Below are positions 26,923 to 32,633 of a DNA stretch of 64,000 bases, one piece after another. This stretch comes from Methanofollis liminatans DSM 4140. Lineage in GTDB: Archaea; Halobacteriota; Methanomicrobia; Methanomicrobiales; Methanofollaceae. Position 1 is the first letter of the stretch. Every line of letters begins with the position of its first letter. The notes below the pieces were generated by a model that saw only the letters and a list, made by a program, of their open reading frames with translations, was not told where the DNA came from and did not search any database. Both the position numbers and the translations under genes were made by a program. The stretch is from contig NZ_CM001555.1 of the NCBI RefSeq assembly GCF_000275865.1, forward strand, positions 1-64,000, in the 5' to 3' direction.

Positions 26923-27702
26923 ATGGACCCGGAGATCACCGAGATCACCGTTCTCCCGGGGAGGGACAAGAACGGCATGCAGGAGACCTTCGATCGGATC
27001 GTGATCAGACCTGGCGAAACGCTCTCCATCGTCGGCCCCACCGGATCGGGCAAGAGCGCCCTTATCGGGGACATCGAGATCTTCGCCAGGGAGGATACGG
27101 CCACCGGCAGGACCGTTCTGGTCAACGGGGGGATGCCACCCGAGGATCTCGTGCGGGACCCATCAAAAAAACCGGTCGCCCTGATCACCCAGAACACGAA
27201 GTGCCTCGCCGATCTCACGGTGCAGGAGTTCCTCTCGATGCATGTGCGGTCGAGACGGATCGAGCGTGACGGGATCGTTGCGGAGACGATCGCCCTCGCA
27301 AACGAGTTCACCGGCGAAGAGATCACCGCCGGCGCACGGATGACCGCGCTCTCGGGCGGCCAGACGCGCTCGCTGATGGTAGCCGACGCCATCACGATCG
27401 GCAACACCCCGATCATCATCCTGGACGAGGTCGAGAACGCCGGTATCTTCAAGGACCGGGTGATCGAGACCCTCAGGGCATATGGAAAAGCGGTCATCTT
27501 CGTCACGCACGACCCTCTCGTTTCCCTGATGTGCGACCGGCGGATCGTGATGCGCAACGGCACCGTGACAAAGATCATCGAGCGCGACGGGGAGGAGGAA
27601 AAGGCCCTTGCCGCCATCAGAAAAATGGACGGGATCCTTTCTGCCCTGAGAGAGCGGATCCGCGCCGGCGAGTCGATCACCGAAGCCGCATTCGCCTCAT
27701 GA
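26923..27702 (+). CDS. Stand-alone ABC-type ATPase, first gene of the coenzyme M cluster
   Basis: 259 residues. Walker A G-P-T-G-S-G-K-S-A near 38-46, Q-loop I-T-Q-N near 88, signature L-S-G-G-Q near 144-148, Walker B I-I-I-L-D-E near 165-170 with the catalytic Glu, and the switch His in F-V-T-H-D near 192-196. No membrane partner is encoded nearby, so it is probably a soluble ATPase like SufC or AtwA rather than a transporter. It overlaps the next gene by 4 bases (ATGA). Its position ahead of a G3E GTPase, a 4Fe-4S protein and the marker-16 protein suggests work on a metallocluster or reductive activation of the last coenzyme M step (inference). Confidence 0.8.
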   Translation: MDPEITEITVLPGRDKNGMQETFDRIVIRPGETLSIVGPTGSGKSALIGDIEIFAREDTATGRTVLVNGGMPPEDLVRDPSKKPVALITQNTKCLADLTVQEFLSMHVRSRRIERDGIVAETIALANEFTGEEITAGARMTALSGGQTRSLMVADAITIGNTPIIILDEVENAGIFKDRVIETLRAYGKAVIFVTHDPLVSLMCDRRIVMRNGTVTKIIERDGEEEKALAAIRKMDGILSALRERIRAGESITEAAFAS

Positions 27703-28406
27703 AACTGATCGTCATTGCCGGTCCCCCCTCGGCGGGCAAGACGGCGGTCGTCAGGCAGATCGTCCGCAACCTTCGGGCGACGGCGGCGATCGCCTACCTG
27801 AAGATCGATGTCGTGCGCGCCTTCGAGGACGAGGAACTGAAGGAGGAGTTCGGCATCCCGGCGCGGAAGGTCTATTCAGGCGACCTCTGCCCTGACCATG
27901 CAGGCATCATGGTGATGCGGGACGCAATCGCCTGGGCCGCCGGCGAGGGCGCCGATATCCTGATCGTCGAGTCGGCCGGGCTCTGCCTCCGCTGCTCGCC
28001 CTACCTCACGCAGTCCCTCGGGATCGTCGTCATCAGTGCGGTCTCGGGCACGCATGCCCCCCTCAAGATGGGCCCGATGATCGCCCTTGCCGACGTGGCG
28101 GTGGTCACCAGGATCGACCTGGTCTCGCAGGCCGAGAAGGAGGTCTTCCGCGAGCGTATCCTTGAAGTGGCGCCGGGGATCGAGATCGTCGAGACAAACG
28201 CCCTCCAGGGCACCGGCATGCGCTATCTCATCCGCAGGATCGAGGAGGCCGGGGAGATCGAGGACGAAGAGACGATCGAGGTCCGCGGCGTCCCGCCCCT
28301 CGGGGTCTGCACTATATGTGTCGGGAAGAGGGAGATCGGGTGGCAGCGCCACTTCGGCGTCGTCAGGAAACTCGACGGCGCCGACTGGATCTTCAGGGGG
28401 GAGTGA
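27699..28406 (+). CDS. G3E-type (HypB/UreG/CobW-like) P-loop GTPase
   Basis: 235 residues. Walker A G-P-P-S-A-G-K-T near 8-15, Walker B with I-V-E-S-A-G-L-C near 88-95, and T-R-I-D near 136, taking the place of N-K-x-D, which points to GTP. Cys pairs C-L-R-C-S-P near 95-100 and C-T-I-C-V-G-K-R-E-I-G-W-Q near 204-216 could hold a metal. Members of this class insert Ni or Co into enzymes or act as cofactor chaperones. The ATG at 27699 overlaps the ABC ATPase stop; the stop at 28406 directly abuts the next ATG, so these genes are tightly coupled. Confidence 0.8.
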   Translation: MKLIVIAGPPSAGKTAVVRQIVRNLRATAAIAYLKIDVVRAFEDEELKEEFGIPARKVYSGDLCPDHAGIMVMRDAIAWAAGEGADILIVESAGLCLRCSPYLTQSLGIVVISAVSGTHAPLKMGPMIALADVAVVTRIDLVSQAEKEVFRERILEVAPGIEIVETNALQGTGMRYLIRRIEEAGEIEDEETIEVRGVPPLGVCTICVGKREIGWQRHFGVVRKLDGADWIFRGE

Positions 28407-29009
28407 ATGGCCTGGCAACCTCCCGGGAAGAACTGCGGGCTCTGCGGTGCGAAGACCTGCCGAGCGTTTCTGGAGATGGTCAGGTCAGGGGAGCGGTCGT
28501 ATCCTGACTGCCCGTTCTATCAGGAGACGGGTGGCGAACAGGCGGCGCAGGACCTCCGCGATATCCTCGGCAACCCCTATGACTTCGTCCTCGATCCCGC
28601 CCCTGGCGAGCCCTCGGCGCGCAAGATCGTCCTGCCGTTCCGCCCCGACCTCGTCGAGAGATGGGGGATCGCAGAGGGGGAGATCGTGCTCGGGCGCCCG
28701 ATGGGGGCAGGGTGCCCGGTCCAGCATGTCCTGCGGGTGATCGACGCCAACCCGGTGACCGGCGTCCTGACGACCCATGTCGTCGGCCCGGCCTTCTCGC
28801 GGGGCGCCTCCTGTCACGACGTCCAGGCCTACCACATGATCGGTTTCGAAGGGCTTGCCCGCGTGATACGCCGCCCCCCGACCTTCGGGATGCGCCAGCG
28901 CTTCCTCCCGGGGTTCTGCATGATGGCCCTCACCCATACCGGCGTTACCAATATGGTGATCGAGCGTCCAGAGGGACTCTTGATCCGGGTGGAGGACATC
29001 AGAATATGA
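28407..29009 (+). CDS. 4Fe-4S (ACDS/CFeSP-type) domain protein in the coenzyme M cluster
   Basis: 200 residues. The N-terminus N-C-G-L-C-G-A-K-T-C followed 16 residues later by D-C-P-F-Y is the four-Cys 4Fe-4S motif of the corrinoid/Fe-S protein and RnfB. The rest (about 45-200) is a beta-rich domain without recognised catalytic residues, containing G-A-G-C-P-V-Q-H-V, S-C-H-D-V-Q-A-Y and F-C-M-M-A-L-T-H. It starts 1 base after the G3E gene and overlaps the marker-16 gene by 4 bases. Role not known; an electron donor or cluster scaffold for the marker-16 protein is the simplest idea (inference). Confidence 0.75.
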   Translation: MAWQPPGKNCGLCGAKTCRAFLEMVRSGERSYPDCPFYQETGGEQAAQDLRDILGNPYDFVLDPAPGEPSARKIVLPFRPDLVERWGIAEGEIVLGRPMGAGCPVQHVLRVIDANPVTGVLTTHVVGPAFSRGASCHDVQAYHMIGFEGLARVIRRPPTFGMRQRFLPGFCMMALTHTGVTNMVIERPEGLLIRVEDIRI

Positions 29010-30232
29010 GAAGGATCGAGGAGATCGGGGAGCGGATCAGGGGCGGAGACGCCGTCGTGCTCACCGCCGCAGACCTCAAGAAGCGGATCCGCGAGGGTGA
29101 GCGGCTGACGCCCGGGGATGTGGATGTGGTTACCTGCGGCACCTGCGGGGTGATGTCGGGCACGGCGGCGATCCTCTCCCTCCCGGTGACCGAACCCGGA
29201 GTCTTCTCCCGCGCCGAATCGGTGCGCCTGAACGGGGTCCCGGCGTTTCCCGGCCCCTGCCCGAACGAACGGCTCGGCCTTGTCGACCTGATCGTCTACG
29301 GGACGGCGCAGGCCGGGCCCCGCTATGGCGGTGGTCATCTTTTCGCCGATCTTGTGGCAGGAAAGGCGATCGAGGTCGAGGTCGCCGCCGGCGGACGGGA
29401 GTACGCGAGAACGGTCACCATCGACGAGTGCAATGCCGCACGGCTGTTTACCACGAGGAGCGCCTTCAAGAACTATACCGCCTACGTGAACCGGGAGCAC
29501 TCCGTTGTCAGGACAATCTTCTCGACCGGAGGGCTCCTCGGCCCCTGCAGGGAGGCCTCGGTCAGCGGGTGCGGGGAGATCAACCCGATCGAGAACGATC
29601 CCGCCCTGCGATTCATCAGGCCAGGGAGCCGCGTGCTCGTGAACGGCGCACCCGGTTTTGTGATGGGCGAGGGCACGCGCTCTTCAAAGGAGCGCCCGAA
29701 CATCATGGCCTTCGCCGAGATCAGGGAGATGGATTCCCGCTACTGCGGGGGGTTCGTCACCTCGGCAGGGCCCGAGTGCATCACGGCGATCGCAACGGCG
29801 ATCCCGGTCCTCGACCGGGCCGCTCTCGATGCACTCTCCGTGCTCGACGAGGGAATCCCGTTGCCGGTGGCCGACATCAACGATCGCCGGCCCTTCGCCC
29901 TTGCCGATTACGGCCAGGTATGGCAGGGCACCGACCGGCACGTGACCTACGATATCGCCGCCTGCGCCTTCTGCGAGCACTGTGCCGCCGGGGCGGTCTG
30001 CCCGACCGGGGCCTTTATGACCGGGAAAGGGATCGATCCCGGCCTGTGCGTCTCATGCGGCGCCTGTGCCTCGTCCTGCACCGGCGGGGCCGTACAGGCC
30101 GACCTCGGCGCCATCGCCCTCGACGGTGTGAGGGTCCCGATCACCCTCCGCCAGTCAGACCGGAACCGCGCCGAGACCCTCTGCGCAGACCTCAGGGAGA
30201 GGATCCTGGACCATAGATTCCCGATACCATGA
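29006..30232 (+). CDS. Methanogenesis marker 16 protein (COG1900/DUF39 plus ferredoxin), probable last step of coenzyme M synthesis
   Basis: 408 residues. Residues about 1-320 are the DUF39 domain, with V-T-C-G-T-C-G-V-M-S-G near 41-51, G-P-C-P-N-E near 84-89 and S-V-S-G-C-G-E-I-N-P near 186-195. Residues about 325-375 add C-A-F-C-E-H-C-x5-C-P and C-V-S-C-G-A-C-A-S-S-C, two 4Fe-4S sites. The same family makes homocysteine from aspartate semialdehyde, and a COG1900 homolog has been reported to convert sulfoacetaldehyde to coenzyme M. The neighbouring cysteate synthase and ComDE make the sulfoacetaldehyde substrate. The ATG overlaps the previous stop by 4 bases. High confidence in the family, medium in the reaction. 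Confidence 0.85.
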   Translation: MRRIEEIGERIRGGDAVVLTAADLKKRIREGERLTPGDVDVVTCGTCGVMSGTAAILSLPVTEPGVFSRAESVRLNGVPAFPGPCPNERLGLVDLIVYGTAQAGPRYGGGHLFADLVAGKAIEVEVAAGGREYARTVTIDECNAARLFTTRSAFKNYTAYVNREHSVVRTIFSTGGLLGPCREASVSGCGEINPIENDPALRFIRPGSRVLVNGAPGFVMGEGTRSSKERPNIMAFAEIREMDSRYCGGFVTSAGPECITAIATAIPVLDRAALDALSVLDEGIPLPVADINDRRPFALADYGQVWQGTDRHVTYDIAACAFCEHCAAGAVCPTGAFMTGKGIDPGLCVSCGACASSCTGGAVQADLGAIALDGVRVPITLRQSDRNRAETLCADLRERILDHRFPIP

Positions 30233-30244
30233 TGGAGAGATGAT

Positions 30245-31516
30245 ATGCGACCCTATACCCTGCTCTGCCCTGACTGCGGGCAGAGAATGGAAGACCATTA
30301 CACCCTGTCCTGCCCGGCCGGGTGCAATGCCCTGATCCGCACCGTCTACCTGAAGCGGACCCTCGACCTCAGAAAAGAACCCGGCATATTCCGCTTTGCA
30401 GACTGGCTCCCGGTCGAGGGGACGATCCCCTCGCCGGCCGGACCGGTCACCTACCGCTCGGAGGGGCTTGCACGGGACCTCGGGATGAAGAACCTCTGGA
30501 TCGGTTTTTCCGGCTACTGGCCTGAGCGGAACGCAGAGATCGCGACCTGCTCGTTCAAGGAGCTCGAGGCCCTGCCGACGGTGGTGCGGATGAAGGAGAC
30601 CGGGAGGGGGACGCTCGTCATCGCCTCGGCCGGCAATACAGGCCGGGCCTTCTGCCAGACCGCCGCCGTCACCGGGATCCCGGTCGTGGTGGTGGTGCCG
30701 TCGGCCGCCGCGGAGAGGCTCTGGACGACGAGGGAGACGGAGAAGGTCTGCCTGGTCACGGTGGACGGCGACTATTCCGACGCCATCGCCGCCGCAAACG
30801 ATCTCTGCACGCATGCCGGCCTCGTCCCGGAGGGCGGGGCGAAAAACGTCGCCCGCAGGGACGGCATGGGCACGGTGATGCTCGACGCCGCCGTGACGAT
30901 CGGGCGGATCCCCGATCACTACATTCAGGCGGTCGGGAGCGGGACCGGGGGGATCGCCGCATGGGAAGCGGCGATGCGGCTGATCGGCGACGGGCGCTTT
31001 GGCGGCGCCCTCCCCCGCCTCCACCTCGCCCAGAACGCCCCCTTCGTCCCGATGGTCAGTGCGTGGCGGGCAGGACGGCGGAAGATCCTCCCTGAGACCG
31101 ACATGCGGGATGCGCGATCGGCGATCGCCGCCGTGTACGCCGATGTGCTGACCAACCGGAACCCGCCGTACGGGGTGGGCGGCGGTGTCTTCGACGCCCT
31201 CACGGCGACCGGCGGGGCGATGTATGCGGTGGAGAACCGGGATGCCCGCGACGCGGAGAAGAGGTTTGTCGAGGCAGAGGGGATCGATCTCGACCCCGCC
31301 GCCGCCGTTGCGGTCGCCGCCCTCATCCAGGCGGTGGAGACCGGGGAGATCGATCCCCATTCGACCGTCCTGCTCAACATCACCGGCGGCGGCTACGAAC
31401 GGGCGGCCGAGGACCACGATCAGATCGTCGTCAGGCCCGCTTTTCAGGTCGCCGCAGGAACAGGGGCAGGCGATATCGCCGCCGACGTCCTCTCGTGGGT
31501 GAAGCGCCATGCATGA
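30245..31516 (+). CDS. Cysteate synthase (PLP, threonine-synthase-like)
   Basis: 423 residues. A threonine-synthase-like fold with PLP lysine K105 in T-C-S-F-K-E-L-E-A, the phosphate-cup motif S-A-G-N-T-G-R-A-F near 121-129, and an N-terminal zinc-ribbon-like C-P-D-C-x10-C-P-A-G-C. Gene adjacency to fused ComDE marks it as cysteate synthase, which converts O-phosphoserine and sulfite to cysteate in Methanosarcinales and Methanomicrobiales; these lineages lack the phosphosulfolactate route. It shares 8 bases with comDE. Ordinary threonine synthase is the only serious alternative, and the context argues against it. Confidence 0.88.
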   Translation: MRPYTLLCPDCGQRMEDHYTLSCPAGCNALIRTVYLKRTLDLRKEPGIFRFADWLPVEGTIPSPAGPVTYRSEGLARDLGMKNLWIGFSGYWPERNAEIATCSFKELEALPTVVRMKETGRGTLVIASAGNTGRAFCQTAAVTGIPVVVVVPSAAAERLWTTRETEKVCLVTVDGDYSDAIAAANDLCTHAGLVPEGGAKNVARRDGMGTVMLDAAVTIGRIPDHYIQAVGSGTGGIAAWEAAMRLIGDGRFGGALPRLHLAQNAPFVPMVSAWRAGRRKILPETDMRDARSAIAAVYADVLTNRNPPYGVGGGVFDALTATGGAMYAVENRDARDAEKRFVEAEGIDLDPAAAVAVAALIQAVETGEIDPHSTVLLNITGGGYERAAEDHDQIVVRPAFQVAAGTGAGDIAADVLSWVKRHA

Positions 31517-32633
31517 AGAGGGCGTATGCGACCTGCTGAAGGCGTCAGGGATCGACCTCGCCCTCACCCTCCCCTGCGACCGGGCCGGCGACCTCTGCTT
31601 CCTCCTTCCAGAGCGGATCCGCACCGTCGGGCTGAACCGCGAGGAGGACGGGGTCGGCATCGCCGCCGGCGCCGTCCTGGCAGGGCTCAGGCCGGTCGTC
31701 GTTATCCAGAGTTCAGGCCTCGGGAACATGCTCAACGCCGTCATGTCCCTTACGGTCACCTTCGGTCTTCCCCTGCCGGTCCTTGCGAGCTGGCGCGGGG
31801 TGTACAGGGAGCAGATCCCGGCGCAGGTCCCGTTCAACAGCCGTCTGCCCGCCCTCCTCGACGCCCTCGAGATCAGGCACACCGAGATCATGGAGGCCGG
31901 CGACCTCGGGCGAATAGAAGAGGTGATCGAGGACGCCTTTACCCACAAGAGGCCGCATATCGCCCTGATCTCGCCGCGGGTCTGGGAGGGGGAGAGGTGC
32001 ACCGCAGGCTGCAGGGAGGCGCCGGAGCGGGCCAGGACCTCGGCCCTCACCTACCGGCGCGAGATCCCGGAGCCCTCGATGGCGAGGTACGACGCAATCC
32101 GGGCGATCGTCCCGCACCTTGCAGACGCCGCCGTCGTCGCCAACATCGGCGTCCCGAGCAAGGAACTCTATGCGGCCGGCGACAGACCGCTCGCCTTCTA
32201 TATGCTCGGCTCCTACACCCAGGCATCGGCCGTCGGCCTCGGGATCGCCCTCGGGACGAAACGGAGGGTCGTGGTGCTGGACGGCGACGGGAGTCTCCTC
32301 GGCAGCGCCGTCCTCCCGGTGATCGCCGCCAGAGCGCCTGAGAACCTCACGATCGTCTGCCTGGACAACGGGGCCTTCGGGTCCACCGGCAACCAGCCCA
32401 CCTGCGCCGCCACAGGGGCCGACCTCGAACTCATGGCACGGGCCGCGGGCTTTACGAGGACATGGAAGGCATCAGAGCCGCGGGGCATCGGGGAGGCGAT
32501 GGCAGCCGCAGCAGGGGGCGGCCCGAACTTCATCCACGTGATCATCAGGCCGGAAAACGCCACCGTGCCGAATATACCCCTCTCCCCTGAGGCGATCAGG
32601 GACCGGTTCATGGCGGCGCTGCAGGAGCCCTGA
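31509..32633 (+). CDS. comDE: Sulfopyruvate decarboxylase, fused ComD-ComE
   Basis: 374 residues. Residues about 1-165 correspond to ComD (E-E-D-G-V-G-I-A-A-G-A near 45-55, with the TPP-activating Glu), and about 190-374 to ComE (the TPP site G-D-G-S-L-L-G-S near 258 followed by N-L-T-I-V-C-L-D-N-G-A-F-G-S-T-G-N-Q). The enzyme decarboxylates sulfopyruvate to sulfoacetaldehyde. In Methanocaldococcus the halves are separate genes; fusion is typical of the cysteate-synthase lineages. An aspartate-type aminotransferase must convert cysteate to sulfopyruvate, but none is in this cluster. Last gene of the six-gene run; followed by a T-run. Confidence 0.9.
   Translation: MHEEGVCDLLKASGIDLALTLPCDRAGDLCFLLPERIRTVGLNREEDGVGIAAGAVLAGLRPVVVIQSSGLGNMLNAVMSLTVTFGLPLPVLASWRGVYREQIPAQVPFNSRLPALLDALEIRHTEIMEAGDLGRIEEVIEDAFTHKRPHIALISPRVWEGERCTAGCREAPERARTSALTYRREIPEPSMARYDAIRAIVPHLADAAVVANIGVPSKELYAAGDRPLAFYMLGSYTQASAVGLGIALGTKRRVVVLDGDGSLLGSAVLPVIAARAPENLTIVCLDNGAFGSTGNQPTCAATGADLELMARAAGFTRTWKASEPRGIGEAMAAAAGGGPNFIHVIIRPENATVPNIPLSPEAIRDRFMAALQEP

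Follow-up and report, generated by a model that had tools for sequence, protein, structure and literature searches.

The ABC-type ATPase, the HypB/UreG-like GTPase and the COG2000-type Fe-S protein encoded at the head of the coenzyme M (CoM) operon of Methanofollis liminatans form one invariant block of three genes (here called the trio), whose link to the CoM pathway is well supported. As judged from gene content and neighbourhood, the trio may be a sulfur-supply module dedicated to CoM, with sulfite as the likely compound supplied, and it could act where the pathway begins instead of being confined to the last enzyme, the CoM synthase MMP16 (methanogenesis marker 16 metalloprotein, ComF). 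This takes the focus off MMP16. To our knowledge, CoM is needed by every methanogen and both archaeal routes to it start by the addition of sulfite. Sulfite harms the methane-forming machinery, yet the CoM routes need it, and its origin has been described as unclear (PMC6286981, PMC3448663); a trio which tracks the sulfite-fixing enzymes of two unrelated routes is a concrete and genetically testable candidate for this source.

The CoM operon and the trio proteins

The window, i.e. the whole stretch of 64,000 nucleotides analysed, contains at 26923-32633 six open reading frames, all on the plus strand, in the order ATPase, GTPase, Fe-S protein, MMP16, cysteate synthase (CS) and ComDE. The six genes are a type-2 CoM biosynthesis operon. 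Read from the sequence, the junctions of ATPase with GTPase and of Fe-S protein with MMP16 are 4-base overlaps (ATGA), GTPase and Fe-S gene abut, CS and ComDE overlap by 8 bases, and a 12-base gap separates MMP16 from CS. The six families, their common direction and the four overlapping or abutting junctions out of five had been described in the earlier note, and are borne out by reading frame positions, profile scores and sequence. As the upstream gene is divergent and the downstream gene convergent, the six genes make up one unit, and since dozens of related genomes show the identical order, this order is not due to chance. The host genome is a single contig of 2.48 Mb, in which a second COG1900 protein (COG1900a) is encoded 1.58 Mb away from the operon.

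The MMP16 protein (29006..30232, TIGR03287, 525 bits with a cut-off of 364) is composed of a COG1900 core and a C-terminal ferredoxin domain, the cysteines of which are conserved. CS (30245..31516), which uses O-phosphoserine and sulfite in a reaction described in PMC12713407, reaches 656 bits with TIGR03844 (cut-off 325) versus only 104 bits with the best threonine synthase model. ComDE (31509..32633) is a fused sulfopyruvate decarboxylase, with the alpha and beta parts both above cut-off within one reading frame (TIGR03845, 195 bits, cut-off 148; TIGR03846, 242 bits, cut-off 221.5).

The ATPase of the trio (26923..27702, PF00005, 52.8 bits) is soluble, and its Walker A motif GPTGSGK and signature LSGGQTR are conserved across the family. 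Its fixed neighbours in the loci analysed are the GTPase, the Fe-S protein and CoM genes, with no permease gene among them, nor is a permease partner found nearby. ABC nucleotide-binding motifs without a nearby permease are shared with soluble ABC ATPases of the SufC-like type, but the SufB or SufD partner of SufC is not found nearby, and in profile searches the solved structures closest to it were low-scoring exporter ATPases.

The GTPase (27699..28406) is a member of the G3E GTPases (CobW/HypB/UreG), with 49.5 bits for PF02492 (gathering score 20.7) and a conserved P-loop, switch Cys/His and TKxD. In common with HypB and UreG it has the P-loop, a TKxD-type motif and Cys/His in the metal-site region, C64 aligning in the region of the HypB metal-site cysteine and of the UreG CPH motif. 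In distinction to these it scores below both family cut-offs (for HypB 62.7 bits with TIGR00073, cut-off 121.2) and has extra invariant residues; the alignment of 79 sequences shows C64-P-D-H67 together with the additional C96-x2-C99, C204-x2-C207 and H218.

The Fe-S protein (28407..29009, PF04060, 41.7 bits) starts with a 4Fe-4S motif of the CFeSP/RnfB type (C10, C13, C18, C35). This motif is common to the CFeSP gamma subunit and RnfB, but there is no corrinoid-binding or other common domain, and the combination of 4Fe-4S motif and corrinoid-binding domain which characterises the CFeSP gamma subunit is not found in the Fe-S protein. These four cluster cysteines, together with C103, H107, C171 and H177 of the second domain, are invariant among about 80 sequences, in which ligand exceptions amount to at most one per position and occur in a decayed copy. 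Profile search of the PDB matched solely the N-terminal 45 residues or so (about 40 for CFeSP gamma), and neither this search nor Pfam gave a sequence relative of the C-terminal domain. Single-sequence AlphaFold gave a mean pLDDT of 41 and no usable model.

Distribution and gene neighbourhood

The sample comprised 296 Halobacteriota genomes and 28 Methanococci genomes of at least 90% completeness, the latter reached via an M. jannaschii ComA sequence used for that alone; the class Methanobacteria lies outside the sample. In most genomes presence of the trio was scored by one member of the block, and the minimum of 160 bits set for the Fe-S protein is well apart from chance matches. In Halobacteriota the Fe-S protein is present in 92 genomes, MMP16 above cut-off in 133 and CS in 134, the last count omitting three borderline matches at 350-365 bits. 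The co-occurrence search proposed in the earlier note gave CS in 91 of the 92 trio-positive genomes, the exception being G295 with its MMP16 at a contig end; 85 of the 92 have MMP16. The association coefficient phi, calculated within the order, was 0.91 between trio and CS, 0.81 between MMP16 and CS and 0.78 between trio and MMP16; as the genomes are related to each other, p-values do not count as independent evidence. The Fe-S gene is absent from 48 of the 133 MMP16-positive and from 43 of the 134 CS-positive genomes; G280, for instance, keeps MMP16, CS and ComDE without the trio.

In every locus with all three genes readable, ATPase, GTPase and Fe-S protein follow each other in fixed order on one strand, though pulled apart by a gap of 1.2 kb in G009. 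MMP16 comes directly after the Fe-S gene in most of the order, and in Methanosarcinales-like genomes CS is directly upstream of the ATPase and the trio hence directly downstream of CS. In G241 a second ComDE adjoins MMP16 (L042), the other ComDE following trio and CS at a separate locus (L116).

New here is the recognition of the three genes as one invariant block. The available part of Chadwick 2025 (PMC12068725) reports that genes for the ATPase, a Ni2+-binding GTPase and the COG2000 Fe-S protein are often found near MMP16, comDE and other CoM genes, their role being unknown; co-localisation as such is therefore not new, and the term uncharacterised, which the earlier note used for this set, holds for the role and not for the co-localisation. 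That part of the article makes no mention of a single three-gene unit, of linkage to comA, of survival after MMP16 loss or of transfer of the trio with MMP16, all of which are reported here.

The Methanococci use the other route. MMP16 is present in all 28 genomes, the Fe-S protein, again as part of a trio block, in 17, and eleven are without the Fe-S gene. ComA is encoded in all 17 trio-positive genomes, and CS was absent from the M. jannaschii control. In twelve of the 17 comA immediately precedes the ATPase on the same strand, at 0-105 bases from the opening of the ATPase frame, and MMP16 is found elsewhere in the genome, away from the block. Trio and comA are not adjacent in the four Methanocaldococcus-like loci. 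Comparison of the two routes, also put forward in the earlier note, showed the trio with ComA in Methanococci; none of the eight ComA-type Halobacteriota carries the Fe-S gene. ComA and CS are not homologous, and sulfite is the substrate common to both. A role of the trio specific for CS was rejected because of its presence in the ComA-using Methanococci. In Methanococci the comA-trio block is flanked by hypE and larC (L164:5611-11028), and in a Methanocaldococcus-like genome mcrD adjoins the trio (L151:9291-9845).

Relation of the trio to MMP16

The earlier note had proposed a dedicated system for maturation or activation of MMP16. Of this proposal, membership of the trio in the CoM pathway and the presence of invariant ligands of metal or cluster type stand, and dedication to MMP16 does not. 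Seven trio-positive genomes are without MMP16 (G046, G215, G230, G232, G259, G033 and G202), and the MMP16-positive genomes lacking the trio, 48 in Halobacteriota, include a further eleven in Methanococci. An exclusive role for MMP16 was rejected, as the trio persists where MMP16 is lost and is absent from many genomes which have it. The first five of the seven belong to one genus and have trio, CS and comDE intact, with a gap of 13-160 bases between Fe-S gene and CS; their trio genes are under purifying selection (pN/pS about 0.1-0.45). They cluster together in the GTPase tree, which points to probably one loss of MMP16 and not five.

A wider role at the last step, in which the trio would provide MMP16 with cluster maturation, electrons or activated sulfur and would after MMP16 loss serve the paralogous L-aspartate-semialdehyde sulfurtransferase, is rather unlikely, even if several observations agree with it. 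The position of MMP16 directly behind the Fe-S gene is one. Another comes from Methanosarcina-like genomes, in which a second copy of MMP16 is joined to a trio at a locus without CS; this second MMP16 nests with high support among Methanomicrobiales-type sequences, indicating that a four-gene block of trio and MMP16 was transferred across orders. Lastly, a COG1900a homologue scoring about 482-490 bits is retained in all seven trio-positive genomes without MMP16. Against this, twelve of 17 genomes of two Methanosarcina-like genera, named from gene arrangement and size, have MMP16 without the trio, the COG1900a gene of the host genome is far from the trio, and in the Methanococci and in family f21 the trio is beside ComA or CS and away from MMP16. 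The available part of PMC12068725, in which MMP16 is shown genetically to be the main CoM synthase of M. acetivorans, also cites that the M. jannaschii MMP16 (MJ1681) lets E. coli make CoM from sulfoacetaldehyde. E. coli presumably lacks the archaeal trio.

Where the entry enzyme (CS or ComA) and MMP16 are at separate loci, the block is found with CS or ComA in 26 genomes (eleven of f21, two of f8 g80, G241 and twelve Methanococci; four of the f21 genomes being placed by match coordinates alone) and with MMP16 in six (the five transferred copies and G093). As MMP16 and ComDE are common to both routes, linkage to comA or CS is by itself compatible with a role at the last steps. In G187 (L092, L176) MMP16 is kept while trio, CS and ComDE are gone from the locus, and CS and trio from the genome, hinting that MMP16 may have another role there.

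Possible function of the trio

The explanation we favour, although only tentatively, is that the trio is one CoM-dedicated unit, not for MMP16 alone, which provides the sulfonate-forming entry enzyme with sulfur in an oxidised form, in the simplest case sulfite. The actual work would be done by the Fe-S protein, as a redox protein which carries a 4Fe-4S cluster and, as its second site, a Cys2His2 site whose metal would be loaded or gated by the HypB/UreG-like GTPase; energy for assembly or catalysis would come from the soluble ABC ATPase. The oxidised sulfur would be fed to CS in M. liminatans and to ComA in Methanococci. The distribution agrees with this, since the trio is found only where CS or ComA is present, in 91 of 92 Halobacteriota, the exception being at a contig end, and in all 17 trio-positive Methanococci, a count from which the lone paralogue trios of G151 and G274 were left out. 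Counted against a sulfite supply are the trio-MMP16 block without CS, the four Methanocaldococcus-like loci and the lone paralogue trios.

The stronger form of this proposal, in which the trio would fill the place of the missing sulfite source in the CoM synthesis of many methanogens, its ATP- and GTP-driven metalloproteins oxidising sulfide to sulfite and handing it to CS or ComA, we regard as unlikely. If true, it would mean that sulfite is made from sulfide inside a strongly reducing and sulfite-sensitive cell. By textbook potentials, passing electrons from sulfide to F420 or ferredoxin to form sulfite is strongly uphill, and the hydrolysis of ATP and GTP would thereby have a purpose. The CS-positive genomes without the trio, the eight ComA-type Halobacteriota and the eleven trio-less Methanococci imply that the block is not the sole source of sulfite. 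An older proposal for its origin is the reverse operation of siroheme proteins (PMC6286981, PMC3448663). Siroheme sulfite-reductase-like proteins were found in 69 of 72 genomes irrespective of the trio; they do not represent an alternative which replaces it, and complementarity of the two was rejected.

Even less probable is a device for metal homeostasis or metal insertion, from which the CoM enzymes would benefit only under certain conditions, for instance when sulfide or metal is scarce, so that its occurrence would be patchy. That the GTPase aligns to HypB and UreG near the Cys/His of the metal site speaks for such a device, as does a related GTPase-ATPase pair adjoining DUF364/DUF4213 'heavy-metal chelation' proteins (two genomes) or SBP_bac_6+DUF1858 proteins (four genomes). 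However, the main trio occurs only in CoM-synthesising genomes and beside CoM genes in most examined loci, neither of which a general device needs. Very improbable is a regulatory or protective unit which would detect CoM or toxic sulfite, or sequester the latter, without itself making a product: sulfite is toxic to methanogenesis (PMC10322725, and the available part of PMC10229431), and the trio is facultative and goes with the enzyme that uses sulfite, but two nucleotide-hydrolysing proteins and a two-site metalloprotein are elaborate for sensing, and no DNA-binding domain was found by profile matches among the trio proteins.

The related pair was detected by searching for the GTPase in genomes without the Fe-S gene, which gave no trio but a GTPase and an ATPase with other partners (L170:7409-10389, L171:7064-10051, L173:7310-10309, L169:6897-9868; L172:8745-10733 and L174:6266-8788). 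The pair lacks the Fe-S gene, and its ATPase is extended at the N-terminus, in L172 with a weak match to DUF1858. This suggests that ATPase and GTPase are an engine with exchangeable, possibly metal-handling, partners.

Paralogous lone trios are located near PKD-domain surface proteins (L105-L108), also in G151 and G274, which have neither CS nor MMP16. On an IMG/VR contig (L168:208-1154) the trio GTPase and an apparently truncated Fe-S gene, of which the first part is present, adjoin phage-like genes, which may reflect a prophage junction or an assembly chimera. G167 harbours a second, lone trio (L115:6632-17605) near a RACo-like activator, a corrinoid protein, a URO-D methyltransferase and an NMT1-type ABC transporter.
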